Part shown: in pieces, positions 18,935 to 48,397 of the stretch
Layout of the letters: each line of letters begins with the position of its first letter
Position numbering within the stretch: the first letter of the stretch is position 1
Assembly: GCF_005670685.2 (NCBI RefSeq)
Contig: NZ_CP062008.1
Span: 2,418,001 to 2,482,000, forward strand
Reading direction: 5' to 3'
Source of the DNA: Mycolicibacterium mucogenicum DSM 44124
GTDB taxonomy: Bacteria > Actinomycetota > Actinomycetes > Mycobacteriales > Mycobacteriaceae
DNA: 64,000 nucleotides
Notes under the pieces: model-generated
What the model was told of the DNA's origin: nothing
What the model saw: the letters and a program-made list of their open reading frames with translations, nothing else
The model's database searches: none
Program-made: the position numbers and the translations under genes

Positions 18935-21082
18935 TCACGCCTCCGCGGGCGACACGTCCGAACCGGTGCCCTTCACCGACGACTTCGCGCGCTTCTCGGC
19001 GCGCACCGCCTTGCCGTTGCGCACGAACCCGGTGGGGGAGACCGCCGCCGACAGCAGCGCGTCCTCGCCCGCCACGAACGGATGGAAACCGACGCCGGCG
19101 CCGCCGCGGCCCTTGACCGGGATGTCGGCGACTTCGGTTACCTTCCAACCCTTTTCAGAGGTCGATAGGATCGCTTCGCCGTTGCCGCACGAAATTGGTA
19201 AGGCCGCGATCACAGCGTCTTCCGGGTCGCCTGCCACCAGCTTCACACCGGCCACGCCATTGCCAGCCGCGCCCTGCGGGTTCACCGCCGCCGGGTCGAT
19301 GCGCAGAATCTTGCCGCGCCGCGTCACCAGCGCCAGGTGGTAGCCCGGCGTCAGCACACCCGAGCGCAGCAGCCCGGTGATGTCCGGGGCGACCGGGATG
19401 TCGCGGGTCTTGGACGGCAGGCCGTTGCCGTTCGTGAACTTGATGCGGCCATCGGTCCACACCGCCCAGCCCAGCCCGGCGGAGAGCAGGTCGCCGTGAG
19501 TGTCGGAGAACACGCCGCGATCGTCAAGGCGCCAGTTGGCGTTGACCTTCTTCTCCCGCGGGCCGTCGTCGTCGGAGCTCGACGCCGTCGGGGTGCCCTC
19601 GAAGTCCAGGACCGTCCGGCGGTCGAATTCGGGCCCGGCGAACAGCTTCGCCGTCTCCTTCAGTTCGTTGTCGATCACCACGCGGCGGGCGTCCGGGTTC
19701 GACACCAGCTCGGTGAGCTCCGCGAACTCCGCGTCGAGCTTGTCCGCCTCGGCCTGCAGCTCGATGACGTCGAGCTTCGTCAGCCGCCGAAGCTGCAGGG
19801 CCAGAACGTAGTTGGCCTGCTCCTCGTCGATGCTGAACCGTTCCTGCAGCCCGCGCCGGGCGTCGTCGACGGTGTCGGAGCCGCGGATGACCGCGACGGC
19901 GGCGTCGATGTCCAGGTGGATCTTCATCAAGCCGGCCACCAGATGCCTGCGGGCGGTGACCTTCTCGAGCCGGTACTGGCTGCGATGCAGCACCACGGAG
20001 TCGCGCAGGTGCAGGAACGCGCCGATCAGCTCGCGCACCGTCCACCAGCGCGGCACGCGGTCCTCGTCGAGCGCCACCAGGCTGGCGGCGAACGTCGACT
20101 CCAGCGGGGTCAGCGCGAGCAGCTGGTCGCGGATGGTCTCGGCGGCGTGCCCGCGTTTGGCAGTGACGACGATGCGCAGCCCGTTCCGGCGGTCGGTCAG
20201 GTCGGACATGTCGGCCACACCGGCCAGCTCGCCGGACTCGACGAGCGCCCGAATCCGGTCCTGCACAGTGTTACTCGCGACACCGGGCGGCAGTTCGGTG
20301 ATGACGACGTTCTTGCCGTCGATCGACAGGGTGCCGCGCACCGTGAGCGCACCGCGGCCGGTGGTGAGGTACTCGCGCAACCCGGCCGTGCCGACCACCG
20401 TCGCCCCGCAGCCCCAGTCCGGGCCGGGAATGAGCTTGGCGAGCCGGTCGTCGGTCATGTTCGGGGTCTTCAGCAGCGCGCGACAGGCCGCCATGATCTC
20501 GCGCGGATTGTGCGCGGGCACCTTGGTGGCCCAGCCTTCGGCGATGCCGACGGCGCCGTTGCAGAGGAGCACCGGCCACTGGGCCGGCAGCATCGTGGGC
20601 TCGATCCACTCGCCGTCGAACGTGGGCACCATGGGCACCGCGTGGTCGTCGAGTTCGGCGGTCAGCGCCGCACCGGGGGCCGACAGCCGCATCTCGGTGT
20701 ACCGGTCGGCGGCCGGAATGTCACCCTGGATGCGCGGGAAAGCGCCTTGTCCGTCAATGACTTTCACGCGCTGGAACTCGGCGGCCATCAGCGCCGCGGC
20801 GCCGTACATCGACGCGCCGCCGTGCGGGTGCAGGTTGCCGGTGACGGCCGAGCAGACCTTCGAGGACTTCTGCGGCTTGTTGCCGGGCAGCAGTTTCGAG
20901 TCGTGCATCTGGTACAGCAGGCGGCGCTGGCCCGGCTTGAGGCCGTCGAACGCCGACGGGATGGCGCGGTCGCTGACGCTGTAGAGCGCGAACGTCAGCT
21001 GGTAGTGGTTCCAGTAGTCGTCGGCGCTCTGGTCGAGCACCAGGTCCGGATTCTGTTCGGGAAGGTCCAGTGGGGAGGTCAC
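18935..21082 (-). CDS. GyrA/ParC-like subunit of atypical type II topoisomerase (TopoM-like)
   Basis: A 715-residue DNA breakage-reunion subunit, shorter than GyrA (about 840). DGLKPGQRRLLYQM and the catalytic-tyrosine motif AADRYTEMRLS (Tyr128) are present. In the loop HPHGGASMYG (85-94) the two Asp residues of housekeeping GyrA (89 and 94 by M. tuberculosis numbering) are both Gly. The C-terminal pinwheel-like region has VKGRGGAG where GyrA has its GyrA box. It lies 12 bp after the GyrB-like gene, so one operon. M. smegmatis has a described atypical enzyme of this kind, TopoNM. Start GTG 21082. Confidence 0.9.
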   Translation of the reverse strand: MTSPLDLPEQNPDLVLDQSADDYWNHYQLTFALYSVSDRAIPSAFDGLKPGQRRLLYQMHDSKLLPGNKPQKSSKVCSAVTGNLHPHGGASMYGAAALMAAEFQRVKVIDGQGAFPRIQGDIPAADRYTEMRLSAPGAALTAELDDHAVPMVPTFDGEWIEPTMLPAQWPVLLCNGAVGIAEGWATKVPAHNPREIMAACRALLKTPNMTDDRLAKLIPGPDWGCGATVVGTAGLREYLTTGRGALTVRGTLSIDGKNVVITELPPGVASNTVQDRIRALVESGELAGVADMSDLTDRRNGLRIVVTAKRGHAAETIRDQLLALTPLESTFAASLVALDEDRVPRWWTVRELIGAFLHLRDSVVLHRSQYRLEKVTARRHLVAGLMKIHLDIDAAVAVIRGSDTVDDARRGLQERFSIDEEQANYVLALQLRRLTKLDVIELQAEADKLDAEFAELTELVSNPDARRVVIDNELKETAKLFAGPEFDRRTVLDFEGTPTASSSDDDGPREKKVNANWRLDDRGVFSDTHGDLLSAGLGWAVWTDGRIKFTNGNGLPSKTRDIPVAPDITGLLRSGVLTPGYHLALVTRRGKILRIDPAAVNPQGAAGNGVAGVKLVAGDPEDAVIAALPISCGNGEAILSTSEKGWKVTEVADIPVKGRGGAGVGFHPFVAGEDALLSAAVSPTGFVRNGKAVRAEKRAKSSVKGTGSDVSPAEA

Positions 21083-21094
21083 GATCGCGTCCTT

Positions 21095-23128
21095 CTAGTC
21101 CAGGTCCAGCGCAAGGGTGTCGACGACGGCGGCCACCTCGGCCATCCACGTGCGCCGGCCCTCGGGCGGCCCGCCGAACAGGGTGTGGTGCAACTTCTTC
21201 TCGGCGTCGTCGAGGTGCACCCGAATCACGGTGCGCCGCTGCGGATCCAGCACGGTGTTCCAGAAGTCGTCGGCATCCATCTCACCGAGACCCTTGTTGC
21301 GCTGGACTTCCACCCGGCGCTTCGAGCGCGCCTTCAACTCGGCGACGGCGGTGTCGCGCTCGGACTCGTCCTGACAGTAGATGCGCTCCTGACCGTCCTT
21401 CACCACGAACAGCGGCGGCAGCGTCACGTAGACCATGCCGGCCGCGACGAGCGGGCGGTAGAAGTCCAGGAACATCGAGATCAGGCTCGAGTTGATGTTG
21501 CCGCCGTCGGGGTCGGCGTCGGAGGCGAACAGGATCCGGTCGTAGCGGCACTGCTCCGGGTCGCAGTTGTCGCGCACGCCGCAACCCAGGATGCGCTCGA
21601 TGGAATCGAACTCGTCCTTGACCCGCGCCTTGTTGACGGTGAAGCCATAGACGTTGGGCGGCTTGCCTTTCAGCGGGAAGGCCGCCTGGAACGTCGCGTC
21701 GCGGGCCGCCTTGATGGTGCCCAGCGCCGAGTCGCCCTCGCACAGGAACAGTTCGGCGCCCGACCCGCGGCCGGTCTCCCGGCTGGGCAGCAGCTTCGGC
21801 GGCAGCGACAGGTTCGTGCCCAGGCCCTTGGCCTTCGATGCCGCGCGGGACCGCGCCTTGGCGCCCTCGGCGCTGCGGCGCGCCCGGGCCGACTCCAGCG
21901 CCAGCTGCGTCCACAACGTCACAGTGTCGGCGTTGGCGGGGTTCGCCGCCCACACGTTGACACTGCGCGTCACATCGGGGGCCATCGCGACGTTCAGCGA
22001 GCGCGACGAGACGGCGGTCTTGGCCTGCGAGTCCCAGCCCACGTCGGGCGCACGGGTGTCGACGGCCAGCGCGGTGACCGCGGCGAAGTCCTGTGGCTCG
22101 GGTCCGTCCTCGCCCTTGGCCAGGCCCAGGTCGCGAATGCGGGACGCGCGGTCGGCCAGGGCCTCCGACAGCCCCTTGATGGCGGCGGTCAGGTGCGACC
22201 CGCCGCCGGGGGTGCGCACGGTGTTGCAGAACGCGGCCACCGTGGTCGGCTCGGCCGGACCGGCCGTCAGCGACCACCGGAACGGGGTGGGGCCGCGGCC
22301 GGTGGTGTATTCACCGCGGCCTTCGACCACCGCGCGCACCGTGGGCAGGGGAGTGCCCGCCGACGTGCACATGAGCTCCAGGAGCGCCTCGGTGCCCCAC
22401 GGGCCGTTGAAGGGCTGCAGCAATGCGGGCGGGACGTCTTCGCCGGGCCAGCCCTCGTCGACGACGGTCAGGTGTACGCCGGGGCACATGCGGGCCGCGG
22501 CGTGGGCGCGCAGCAGGACCTCACCGATGTCGACGGTGGCGTCCGGCACGACGGCCTGGTCGAACAGGATCCGGACGGTGGTGCCGTGCGCGTCGGGTTT
22601 GCGGTTGCCGGTGCCGCGCAGCTTCTGGGTGTCGGCGCGGGTGAACTCGGCGTTCGGGTCGAATTCCTTGCCCTCGAATGTGCCGGGGTAGCCGTGGCCG
22701 AAGCTCTGCAGGTAGGTCTTGCCGGCGCGGCGCACGGTGACGTCGGTGCGGGCCGAGATGAACACCGCGGCCGCGGCGCCGATGCCGTTCAGGCCGGCGC
22801 CGGTGCTGGTGGCATCGCTGTGGGCGGAGAACTTGCCGCCGGCGCGTGCGGTCCCGAGGGTCTTGACGATGCCGTTCTTGCCGGTCACGGGGTCGGAGTC
22901 GATGGGCAGGCCGCGGCCGTCGTCGGCGACGCTCACCGAGCCGTCGGCATGCAGGGTGATGGTGACGGTGGAGCCGCCGTGGCTGGGGTCGGCGACCTCC
23001 TCGACCGCGTTGTCCACCAGCTCGCGCAGAGCGGTGTTGAGCACATCCAGGCCCAGGTTGACCGCCGGGCGCAGGCGGGTGTGCTGAACATCGTCGAGTT
23101 CGGTGATGTCCGCAGCGTTGTAGCTCAC
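21095..23128 (-). CDS. GyrB/ParE-like subunit of atypical type II topoisomerase (TopoN-like)
   Basis: A 677-residue ATPase subunit. GHKL motifs are ELVDNAVEEV (36-45), ADDGRGLPID (68-77) and GLNGIGA (112-118). A QAK loop (368-370) replaces the usual QTK. The TOPRIM domain has EGDSALG (464-470), PLKGK where GyrB has PLRGK, and ASDADPDGGN (535-544) where GyrB has TDADVDGSH; RNKGLGEM follows. All catalytic acids (Glu464, Asp537, Asp539, Asp541) remain. It is the first gene of the topoNM-like operon, and its 5' side faces a DNA-glycosylase gene. Start GTG 23128. Confidence 0.9.
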   Translation of the reverse strand: MSYNAADITELDDVQHTRLRPAVNLGLDVLNTALRELVDNAVEEVADPSHGGSTVTITLHADGSVSVADDGRGLPIDSDPVTGKNGIVKTLGTARAGGKFSAHSDATSTGAGLNGIGAAAAVFISARTDVTVRRAGKTYLQSFGHGYPGTFEGKEFDPNAEFTRADTQKLRGTGNRKPDAHGTTVRILFDQAVVPDATVDIGEVLLRAHAAARMCPGVHLTVVDEGWPGEDVPPALLQPFNGPWGTEALLELMCTSAGTPLPTVRAVVEGRGEYTTGRGPTPFRWSLTAGPAEPTTVAAFCNTVRTPGGGSHLTAAIKGLSEALADRASRIRDLGLAKGEDGPEPQDFAAVTALAVDTRAPDVGWDSQAKTAVSSRSLNVAMAPDVTRSVNVWAANPANADTVTLWTQLALESARARRSAEGAKARSRAASKAKGLGTNLSLPPKLLPSRETGRGSGAELFLCEGDSALGTIKAARDATFQAAFPLKGKPPNVYGFTVNKARVKDEFDSIERILGCGVRDNCDPEQCRYDRILFASDADPDGGNINSSLISMFLDFYRPLVAAGMVYVTLPPLFVVKDGQERIYCQDESERDTAVAELKARSKRRVEVQRNKGLGEMDADDFWNTVLDPQRRTVIRVHLDDAEKKLHHTLFGGPPEGRRTWMAEVAAVVDTLALDLD

Positions 23129-23239
23129 TGCTGGTCCTTTCCGTCAGGGCCGGCCGGGAACAGCCGAAGCCCCAATACAGGGTGTGCCGCAGGAATGGTA
23201 GGCGGTTCGGCCGACAACGTTGCAGAACCATGCGCGAGT

Positions 23240-23262
23240 TTGTCGGTGGCCTGCGCCACGAT
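23240..23262 (+). promoter_or_regulatory. RecA-NDp-like (PafBC-type) promoter before the DNA glycosylase
   Basis: TTGTCGGTG at 23240-23248, 8 bp, then CACGAT at 23257-23262. This matches the LexA-independent DNA-damage promoter consensus tTGTCRgtg-N8-TAnnnT fully in the upstream element and spacing. In the -10 box it keeps the A at position 2 and T at position 6 but has C instead of T at position 1. The GTG at 23269 is 6 nt downstream, the leaderless distance. Confidence 0.6.
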
Positions 23263-23268
23263 GTGACT

Positions 23269-24465
23269 GTGGCAGCACTCACCATGGTCCAGGCCCGTCG
23301 CATCGCCGTCGCCGCCCAGGGCCTTCACGAACCCAAGCCGTCCGGGGCGGTAACCCGGGCGCACCTGAAGCGTTTGATGTCCAGAATACAAGTGCTGCAA
23401 TTGGATTCGGTATCGGTCTGTGTACGGGCGCACTACGCGCCGGTGTTCAGCCGGCTCGGCCCCTACGATCGGGACGCGCTCGACGCGCTGGCGTGGAGCC
23501 ACAGTGCCCGGTCGCCGCGGCAATTCATCGAGTACTGGGCGCACGAAGCGGCGTTGTTGCCGGTCGACGACTGGCCGCTGCTGCGCTGGCGCATGCGTGA
23601 GTACACCCACGGCCGCTGGGGCACCGAGATCGTCAAGCGCAACGGTGAGCTGGCCGAGAAGATCGTCGCCGCTGTTGCCGAACTCGGGCCGTCGACCGCC
23701 GGACAGATCGAGGCCCACCTCGAGGCCGAACCTCGCGGCGCGAAAGGGCCCTGGTGGGGGCGCAGTGACACCAAGTGGGTCGCAGAGGCGCTGTGGTCGT
23801 CGGGCGTGCTCACCACCGCCACCCGGGCCGGATTCGCGCGGCACTATGACCTGGTCGAGCGGGTGCTGCCGGCGGAGGTGCTGGCCCGGGAGGTCTCCGA
23901 CGAAGAGGCGGTCCGGCAGTTGGTGCTCAAGGCGGCCAGGGCGCTGGGCGTGGGGACCGAGGCCGACATCCGCGACTACTTCCGGCTGGGCGCCCGCCAG
24001 GCGAAACCCGCGTTGGCGGCGCTGGTGGCCTCCGGAGAGCTGGAACCCGTCACGATCGACGGGGTTCCGGCCTACCTGCGCGCCGGGCAGAAAGTGCCTC
24101 GCGCGGACCGGGGCACCGCACTGCTGTGCCCGTTCGACCCGCTGATCTTCTTCCGGCCCCGAGTCGAGCGGCTGTTCGGCTTCCACTACCGGATCGAGAT
24201 CTACACCCCGGCCCCGAAGCGCCAATTCGGTTACTACGTCTGGCCTTTCCTGCTCGACGGCCAGTTGGTGGGGCGCGTCGACCTGAAACGCACCGCCGAC
24301 TCCTTGAATGTCGTGGGCGCGTTCGCCGAGGACGGCCAGGACCGCGCGCGGGTGGCCGCGGCCCTGGTGCCGGAACTCAGATCGATGGCGACGTGGCTCG
24401 GCGTCGACGACGTGACGGTCGGGGATCGCGGGGATCTGGTGACCGAGTTGCGACGACGGGTCTAG
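23269..24465 (+). CDS. YcaQ-type winged-helix DNA glycosylase
   Basis: A 398-residue member of the HTH_42 family, which in E. coli YcaQ unhooks DNA interstrand crosslinks. The catalytic Q-hydrophobic-D motif of the YcaQ branch is QLD at residues 44-46 (IQVLQLDSVSV). WSHSARSPRQFIEYWAHEAALLP and the winged-helix repeats follow, then the C-terminal PFDPLIFFRPRVERLFGFHYRIEIYTP signature. Start GTG 23269 fits a leaderless transcript from the promoter at 23240; GTG 23263 and ATG 23230 are alternatives. The role is repair of bulky or crosslinked lesions by family inference. Confidence 0.85.
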   Translation: MAALTMVQARRIAVAAQGLHEPKPSGAVTRAHLKRLMSRIQVLQLDSVSVCVRAHYAPVFSRLGPYDRDALDALAWSHSARSPRQFIEYWAHEAALLPVDDWPLLRWRMREYTHGRWGTEIVKRNGELAEKIVAAVAELGPSTAGQIEAHLEAEPRGAKGPWWGRSDTKWVAEALWSSGVLTTATRAGFARHYDLVERVLPAEVLAREVSDEEAVRQLVLKAARALGVGTEADIRDYFRLGARQAKPALAALVASGELEPVTIDGVPAYLRAGQKVPRADRGTALLCPFDPLIFFRPRVERLFGFHYRIEIYTPAPKRQFGYYVWPFLLDGQLVGRVDLKRTADSLNVVGAFAEDGQDRARVAAALVPELRSMATWLGVDDVTVGDRGDLVTELRRRV

Positions 24466-24471
24466 CGCCGG

Positions 24472-24864
24472 CTAGTTCGCGGCGTGGTACGCCTCGACGA
24501 TGTCTGCCTTGATGCGGCCGCGGGCCGCGACGTCGTAGCCGTTCTCCTGTGCCCACTCGCGGATGGCGGCGAGCTGCTCCTTCGAGGACGCGGCCTTCTT
24601 GCCGCGGCGGCGCGCCGTGCCGCTCTTGGGGGCCCGAGTGCTCGGCTCGGCGACTTTCTGGGTCCGGGTGCGACGGCCGCCGACGCGGGTCGCGGCGTCC
24701 AGATACGGTGCCAGCGCCTTCTCGAACTTCGCCACGTTCGCAGCGGAAAGATCGATCTGGTAATCAACCCCACGTACCGAGAAGTTAATCCGCTCACCCG
24801 TGTCGTCGGTGATTTCAGTGCCGTTAATATCGTCAACAAGTTGGACGACAATGCGTTCGGCCAC
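24472..24864 (-). CDS. Lsr2 paralogue (nucleoid-associated protein)
   Basis: A 130-residue Lsr2-type DNA-bridging protein that binds AT-rich minor grooves. The N-terminal dimerisation domain is [18 protein letters not shown]...[18 protein letters not shown] long basic linker follows, and the C-terminal domain [30 protein letters not shown] holds the RGR AT-hook-like core. It is longer than the housekeeping Lsr2 (112 residues) and lies outside that locus, so it is a second copy. Start GTG 24864 with AAGGAG 7 bp upstream. Its own upstream region is AT-rich, suggesting self-binding. Confidence 0.9.
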
Positions 24865-47264: not shown

Positions 47265-47287
47265 TTGTCGGTGGCCTCATCTAGCGT
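47265..47287 (+). promoter_or_regulatory. RecA-NDp (PafBC-dependent) promoter of recA
   Basis: TTGTCGGTG (47265-47273), 8 bp, TAGCGT (47282-47287) is a full match to the RecA-independent DNA-damage promoter consensus tTGTCRgtg-N8-TAnnnT. It is downstream of the SOS box and nearer to recA, the same order as the two promoters in M. tuberculosis. PafBC is the known activator of this class. Confidence 0.88.
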
Positions 47288-47344: not shown

Positions 47345-48397
47345 ATGGCAGCACAGGCCCCGGATCGCGAGAAGGCACTCGAACTCGCGCTGGCACAGAT
47401 CGACAAGAGCTTCGGCAAGGGCTCGGTGATGCGGCTGGGAGAAGAGACCCGCCAACCGATTTCGGTCATCCCGACCGGGTCCATCGCCCTGGACGTCGCC
47501 CTCGGCATCGGCGGTCTGCCGCGTGGCCGCGTCATCGAAATCTACGGCCCGGAATCCTCGGGTAAGACGACGGTGGCCCTGCACGCGGTGGCCAACGCGC
47601 AGGCGGCCGGCGGCATCGCGGCGTTCATCGACGCCGAGCACGCGCTGGACCCCGAGTACGCCAAGAAGCTCGGTGTCGACACCGACGCGCTGCTGGTGTC
47701 CCAGCCGGACACCGGTGAGCAGGCCCTGGAGATCGCCGACATGCTGGTGCGCTCCGGCGCCATCGACATCCTGGTCATCGACTCGGTCGCCGCCCTGGTG
47801 CCGCGCGCCGAGATCGAGGGCGAGATGGGCGACAGCCACGTCGGTCTGCAGGCCCGCCTCATGAGCCAGGCGCTGCGCAAGATGACCGGTGCGCTGAACA
47901 ACTCCGGTACCACCGCCATCTTCATCAACCAGCTGCGCGAGAAGATCGGCGTGATGTTCGGTTCGCCCGAAACCACCACGGGTGGTAAGGCTTTGAAGTT
48001 CTACGCCTCGGTGCGTATGGACGTGCGCCGCATCGAGACGCTCAAGGACGGCACCGACGCGGTCGGTAACCGCACCCGCGTCAAGATCGTCAAGAACAAG
48101 GTGGCGCCGCCGTTCAAGCAGGCCGAATTCGACATCCTCTACGGTCGCGGTATCTCGCGTGAGGGCTCGCTCATCGACATGGGTGTCGAGCACGGCTTCA
48201 TCCGTAAGTCGGGTTCGTGGTTCACCTACGACGGTGAGCAGCTGGGGCAGGGCAAGGAGAACGCCCGCAATTACCTGCTGCAGAACGTGGACGCCGCCAA
48301 CGAGATCGAGAAGAAGATCAAAGAGAAGCTCGGTATCGGTGCGGTGCTGACCGATGGTGCGGCTGATGACGTCCTTCCCGCCCCGGTCGACTTCTGA
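47345..48397 (+). CDS. recA: Recombinase A
   Basis: A 350-residue strand-exchange ATPase and LexA coprotease. Walker A GPESSGKT is at residues 68-75, Walker B is [10 protein letters not shown], and [28 protein letters not shown] covers the L2 DNA-binding region. The protein is continuous: the intein of M. tuberculosis RecA is absent. ATG 47345 with GAGGACGGAGAC upstream. It is driven by both a LexA box promoter and a RecA-NDp promoter and overlaps recX by 32 bp. Confidence 0.99.

Follow-up and report, generated by a model that had tools for sequence, protein, structure and literature searches.

Conserved PafBC-type promoter motifs lie back to back between an AlkX/YcaQ-type DNA glycosylase gene and TopoNM-like topoisomerase genes in Mycolicibacterium mucogenicum

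The region analyzed was a stretch of 64,000 nucleotides (hereafter, the window) from the genome of Mycolicibacterium mucogenicum DSM 44124, which consists of one contig of 6.1 Mb. A gene encoding a 398-aa DNA glycosylase of the AlkX/YcaQ type, with a predicted leaderless GTG start, occupies positions 23269 to 24465 on the plus strand and was assigned by open reading frame, Pfam, and a match to a solved structure. The protein has the Pfam AlkZ-like (HTH_42) domain (E value of 2.3e-65, passing the cut-off), and the sole solved structure that it matched was 9ZD6 (E value of 4.9e-88), T. fusca AlkX with DNA (PMC13303869). The Q-aliphatic-D motif is present as QLD at residues 44 to 46 (Q44-L45-D46; codons at 23398 to 23406, plus strand), aligned with the QxD of 9ZD6, and a catalytic role is predicted for it from PMC13303869. 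An earlier note, made from the letters alone, had read the gene as a YcaQ-like glycosylase with a QLD motif, and this reading was borne out. T. fusca AlkX is reported to unhook crosslinks (PMC13303869), and both unhooking of N7-alkylguanine crosslinks and excision of 7-methylguanine are in print for T. fusca and other enzymes (PMC13303869, PMC9040887). The latter source separates a YcaQ-like class, with a general role on N7-alkylguanine and crosslinks, from an antibiotic self-resistance class; by its definitions the window glycosylase, judged from its sequence, belongs to the YcaQ-like class and not to the self-resistance class. ycaQ is named among protective functions in a damage transcriptome of M. 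smegmatis (PMC12027616), and the M. smegmatis glycosylase may already be listed in the regulons tabulated by Muller 2018 and Adefisayo 2021. The genome also has a second AlkZ-like gene (C1:3444499-3445521, locus L090), in which Q-x-D was not seen at the expected place, and a weak third AlkZ-like match at C1:4262297. A gene for an Lsr2-family nucleoid protein (24472 to 24864, minus strand) lies just past the glycosylase gene in convergent orientation.

A candidate promoter at 23240 to 23262 precedes the glycosylase gene, with the layout TTGTCGGTG-N8-CACGAT, followed by six bases and the in-frame GTG at 23269 to 23271. Its −26 element, or PafBC box, is TTGTCGGTG (23240 to 23248, plus strand), identified by motif match and by the conservation of TGTCGG upstream of orthologues, and its −10 element is CACGAT (23257 to 23262, plus strand), identified by motif match and from the orthologue sites. 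One published form of the PafBC promoter is TGTCGG-N10-TA-N3-T (PMC8151990). The glycosylase site has the TGTCGG/TGTCAG-type −26 element and the N10 spacing from TGTCGG to the −10 element that characterize PafBC (RecA-NDp) promoters, but its −10 element is of the type VACGAT and not TANNNT, with C in place of the first T. The earlier claim that the RecA-NDp upstream element and spacing were reproduced exactly holds as far as the −26 element and spacing go and fails for the −10 element. The GTG placed 6 nt downstream was found as described. The pattern of that first reading has a single match without mismatches in the window, which is the glycosylase site; with up to three mismatches there are 15 matches against 2.32 expected, so loose matches are common in the window. 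A search of the whole genome gave 24 sites for TGTCRGTG-N8-TANNNT and 102 sites for the relaxed form TGTCGGTG-N8-NANNNT. With 102 such sites, one relaxed match says little on its own, and we rejected a lone match in one genome as proof of a promoter. The case for the glycosylase promoter thus rests on conservation.

Orthologues were taken as the best 80 of 219 loci from a scan of named genomes, the nearest being Mycolicibacterium and Mycobacterium strains at 94%, including M. llatzerense. The motif TGTCRG-N10-NANNNT was present within 220 bases upstream of 40 of these best 80 of 219 loci; dinucleotide shuffling gave 0.23 on average and at most 3 over 200 rounds. Together with the window, the 40 motif-bearing loci make 41 sites. 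In 40 of the 41 an in-frame start codon (31 GTG and 9 ATG) follows the −10 element at six bases, and this fixed distance is the ground on which a leaderless start is predicted; locus L021 is the sole site with seven. The distance is constant although the N-termini vary between lineages. The −10 element is VACGAT at 39 of the 41 sites, T occupies its first place at none, and at all 41 the bases of TGTCGG, and A..AT within the −10 element, are invariant. The motif is retained across loci with differing neighbor genes. These are counts over related genomes, which are not independent. No PafBC-type motif with a TANNNT or NACGAT −10 element on the gene strand was found upstream of the 40 motif-less orthologues, in 3.5 kb of upstream DNA for most and in shorter stretches for two (820 bases in L046 and 1765 in L081). 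Since half of the best 80 of 219 orthologues lack the motif, the link between this promoter and the glycosylase is not genus-wide. At least seven changes of promoter state are required by a protein tree of 81 rows, with gain and loss not told apart, and few independent pairs on it bear on whether the promoter accompanies departure from dfrA. A glycosylase match, in some cases weak or in pieces, is present in 282 of 297 genus genomes.

The genes on the other side of the promoter region encode an atypical topoisomerase pair on the minus strand. topoN, identified by open reading frame, Pfam, and comparison, specifies a GyrB/ParE-like subunit (21095 to 23128, with a GTG start at 23128), and topoM, identified by open reading frame and Pfam, a GyrA/ParC-like subunit (18935 to 21082). 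Both subunits are distinct from the cell's gyrase, and another GyrB in the genome, at C1:7087, is 35% identical to the topoN product over the matched part. From these sequences the divergent topoisomerase is TopoNM-like. Close full-length copies were found in 38 of 98 genus genomes. A PafBC-type promoter motif, TTGTCGGCC-N8-TACCAT, faces topoN at 23195 to 23217 (minus strand), separated by 22 bases from the −26 element of the glycosylase; on this side the sequence, TGTCGGCCGAACCGCCTACCAT on the minus strand, conforms to TGTCGG-N10-TANNNT. Five close relatives that have sequence at this position all retain TGTCGG and TACCAT; the spacer has changed in three of them. Over the best 30 loci of the genus search, the window's genome included, strict TGTCRG-N10-TANNNT was found upstream of topoN in 11 and missing in 19 (shuffled maximum of 1), and the form with one mismatch was found in 24 and missing in 6 (shuffled maximum of 2). 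The function of TopoNM is described as unknown in PMC8084294, which reports positive supercoiling and reduced fluoroquinolone sensitivity. A figure legend of PMC8223512 already names TopoN as a member of the PafBC regulon; what is added here is the site and its conservation.

The genome has the presumed regulator and other promoters of this kind. Genes resembling pafB and pafC, with WYL, WCX, and HTH_PafC domains, are located downstream of a gene of the Pup-ligase family. In print, single-stranded DNA activates PafBC, which brings RNA polymerase-sigma A to promoters bearing the −26 motif (PMC11804915). recA (350 aa; 47345 to 48397, plus strand, with an ATG at 47345), recognized by reading the sequence, is preceded by a promoter motif of the same type, TTGTCGGTGGCCTCATCTAGCGT, with TAGCGT as −10 element (47265 to 47287, plus strand). 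Its first 13 bases are identical to those of the glycosylase promoter, in agreement with the earlier note, which had assigned both genes to one promoter type. Reading 20 of the 24 strict sites, plus recA, gave uvrA, uvrB, polA-type and dnaE-type polymerase genes, a GIY-YIG exonuclease gene, DUF222 and HNH genes, a metallophosphatase gene that reads as sbcD, and genes without a known repair role. A second back-to-back PafBC-type pair (L159, C1:1974527 and C1:1974603) separates a GIY-YIG exonuclease gene from a small open reading frame. At four DUF222 genes of the window's genome (L158, L160, L163, and L168), the spacer of the PafBC-type promoter contains TTCGAAC. This sequence resembles half a LexA box, and, given that resemblance, both damage pathways may meet at the DUF222 promoters.

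The unusual −10 element was pursued by a blind search for TGTCGG-N10-VACGAT-N6-RTG across 297 genus genomes, which gave matches in 207. Among the first 20 matches listed, 18 begin a gene and 2 do not. The 18 comprise 7 holA, 3 ycaQ, 2 lhr, 5 AbiEi/DUF559-like genes (two passing the Pfam cut-off, two below it, and one by likeness), and 1 glyoxalase-like gene, so that holA, ycaQ, and lhr, named by Pfam for some members and by likeness for others, account for 12 of the first 20. At other spacings, a sample of 20 taken in row order, skipping repeats of families already taken (three being copies of a transposase start), contained 2 recognizable gene starts, with two open reading frames too short for the scan; strictly in order, 5 of 20 rows were gene starts by likeness, four of them of one transposase. 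In a scan over spacings, N10 accounted for 44 of the 150 rows listed, and N4 (29), N7 (27), N13 (14), and N16 (11) were also raised among them, which looks like coding periodicity. The reversed-pattern control used for both the blind and the spacing searches alters composition and is weak. Because the blind matches mostly mark the leaderless starts of a small set of genes that includes holA, lhr, and ycaQ, VACGAT looks like a real −10 subtype of PafBC-type promoters, and with TANNNT as the consensus and VACGAT promoters recurring, we provisionally filed the glycosylase promoter as a variant of the class. The variant motif also recurs in the genus before Eco57I-like methylase genes, beside holA, lhr, and AbiEi/DUF559-like genes (L098-L116 and L188-L207); the 20 regions of recurring families were chosen by eye and are not a fair sample.

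We consider it quite probable that 23195 to 23262 comprises two back-to-back PafBC-dependent promoters that would induce the glycosylase and TopoNM after DNA damage. Once activated by single-stranded DNA, as described in print, PafBC would bind here and make promoters that carry TGTCGG near −26 usable by the housekeeping RNA polymerase. Rightward transcription would begin at the GTG of 23269 or beside it, giving a leaderless glycosylase message, and leftward transcription would make TopoNM. The glycosylase, if it acts as other AlkX/YcaQ-type enzymes do, would free N7-alkylguanine crosslinks and monoadducts for base excision repair. The proposal that a PafBC-type promoter precedes the glycosylase gene had been made in the earlier note, and it gains support from footprinting across the orthologues, from the leaderless geometry, from the common promoter class, and from the presence of genes for PafB and PafC in the genome. 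The suggestion that the divergent topoisomerase shares the response is strengthened by its own conserved motif and by the place of TopoN in the published regulon (PMC8223512); most likely, PafBC induces both genes after DNA damage.

Other explanations of the conserved bases were weighed against this one. They might be kept as protein, in an N-terminal coding extension of the glycosylase starting, for example, at the in-frame ATG at 23230; in the window the frame is indeed open from 23182 or 23230 through the motif into the gene. At 12 of the 41 sites, however, reading the frame back through the −26 element and beyond meets a stop codon before any start, so the conservation cannot be wholly protein coding, and coding conservation was rejected as a whole account of the motif. 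The invariance of TGTCGG and A..AT as bases and the fixed start distance beside varying N-termini likewise speak against an extension, which we regard as very improbable. An unlikely but weightier alternative is that the promoter is real and serves another regulator, or SigA constitutively. ClgR, once proposed for this motif, is reported to recognize the RecA-independent motif (cited in PMC5656591), and the unusual −10 element would suit such a reading; PafBC, on the other hand, is in print as the activator at the motif (PMC8223512, PMC11804915), pafBC is present in the window's genome, and a conserved −26 box would have no place in a plain SigA promoter.

The neighborhood of the orthologues bears on a further possibility, that the glycosylase is mainly a constitutive gene of a dfrA operon and that the motif in the window is a nonfunctional remnant left by chance. 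dfrA precedes the glycosylase gene in 39 of the 40 motif-less loci (that is, 39 of the best 80 of 219 orthologues), locus L085 being the exception, and in many of them the two genes overlap by an ATGA start/stop. These counts come from the listing of open reading frames and recounted marks, with two dfrA genes checked by Pfam. Among the motif-bearing loci, 14 or 15 of 40 (L029 is uncertain) are still behind dfrA and the rest are relocated, as in the window. Among named loci where the gene does not follow dfrA, by contrast, 25 or 26 have the motif and L085 alone is without it, and read-through from dfrA is impossible in the window because the upstream neighbor is divergent. We give this possibility very little credence and retain the reading as two PafBC-dependent promoters. 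L032 is one of the 39 named loci counted above in which the glycosylase gene lies behind dfrA (DHFR).

A 34-bp tandem repeat was noticed upstream of ycaQ in the M. fortuitum group. At 11 named loci (L018-L026, L034, and L039), the −26 box of that gene forms the last part of the repeat unit, which consists of the core CCAATCCGCTYCGCT followed by ACTTGTCGG, is present in one to five copies, and ends in TTGTCGG. An exact 20-mer of this repeat was found in 5 of 118 genus genomes, with 5 of its 6 places at an adnA-like gene and the sixth at an exonuclease gene. A search for the core in 24 chosen genomes, mostly near kin by ycaQ, located it in 16 of them at 29 places, 28 of which are at three DNA-repair promoters: ycaQ accounts for 10 (by coordinates), the adnA-like gene for 14, and the exonuclease gene for 4; the remaining place, elsewhere, holds a degraded copy. 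Repeat copies at genes other than ycaQ are those of L169-L179 and L181-L187, and one adnA-like (UvrD helicase) and one exonuclease member were checked by Pfam. The −10 element of the adnA-like gene, TGTCAT, fits neither TANNNT nor VACGAT. AdnAB is up-regulated by PafBC (PMC8151990). No copy of the core was found in the window's genome, and a single search of open-access papers showed none on such a 34-bp repeat. As a speculation that we rate as possible at best, the repeat may be a movable promoter module, spread and multiplied at the PafBC promoters of the adnA-like, exonuclease, and glycosylase genes in the M. fortuitum group and tuning repair genes together, beside a separate VACGAT −10 class, overlooked by searches for TANNNT, that would serve leaderless PafBC genes such as lhr, holA, and ycaQ.

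If the proposed induction is true, crosslink unhooking by an AlkX-type glycosylase would be linked with the principal damage response of mycobacteria, next to the Lhr-Nei2 pathway. The glycosylase promoter, with its fixed leaderless geometry and a −10 form missed by TANNNT searches, is sharply testable. For TopoNM, a conserved PafBC-type topoN promoter in many species suggests a role in DNA damage or gyrase poisoning as the first to test.

The window system shares features with several known ones. With the YcaQ-like (YQL/AlkX) enzymes, namely, E. coli YcaQ and the AlkX proteins of A. baumannii and T. fusca, the window protein has the AlkZ-like fold family and the QxD motif in common; unlike their genes, the window gene lies under a PafBC-type promoter, and other mycobacterial copies lie behind dfrA. 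RecA-NDp/PafBC promoters such as recA P1 share with it the −26 element TTGTCGGTG, the N8 spacer (N10 from TGTCGG), and A in second and T in last place of the −10 element, whereas the ycaQ sites carry VACGAT instead of TANNNT (39 of 41) and have a start codon fixed at six bases. TopoNM of M. smegmatis, like the window pair, combines GyrB/ParE-like and GyrA/ParC-like subunits outside the gyrase locus; in the window the pair is divergent from the glycosylase gene, and TopoNM, called absent from even related bacteria in a passage of PMC8084294, has copies in the 38 genus genomes noted above. Another related system is Lhr-Nei2, a damage-induced mycobacterial operon for crosslink repair in which deletion of lhr sensitizes cells to crosslinkers (PMC11323726). 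In the matches read, lhr has the same VACGAT leaderless promoter as the glycosylase gene, and the C-terminal domain of Lhr is AlkZ-like (PMC9040887), as is the glycosylase family, but Lhr-Nei2 pairs a helicase with a Nei-type enzyme, whereas the window enzyme is a QxD glycosylase.
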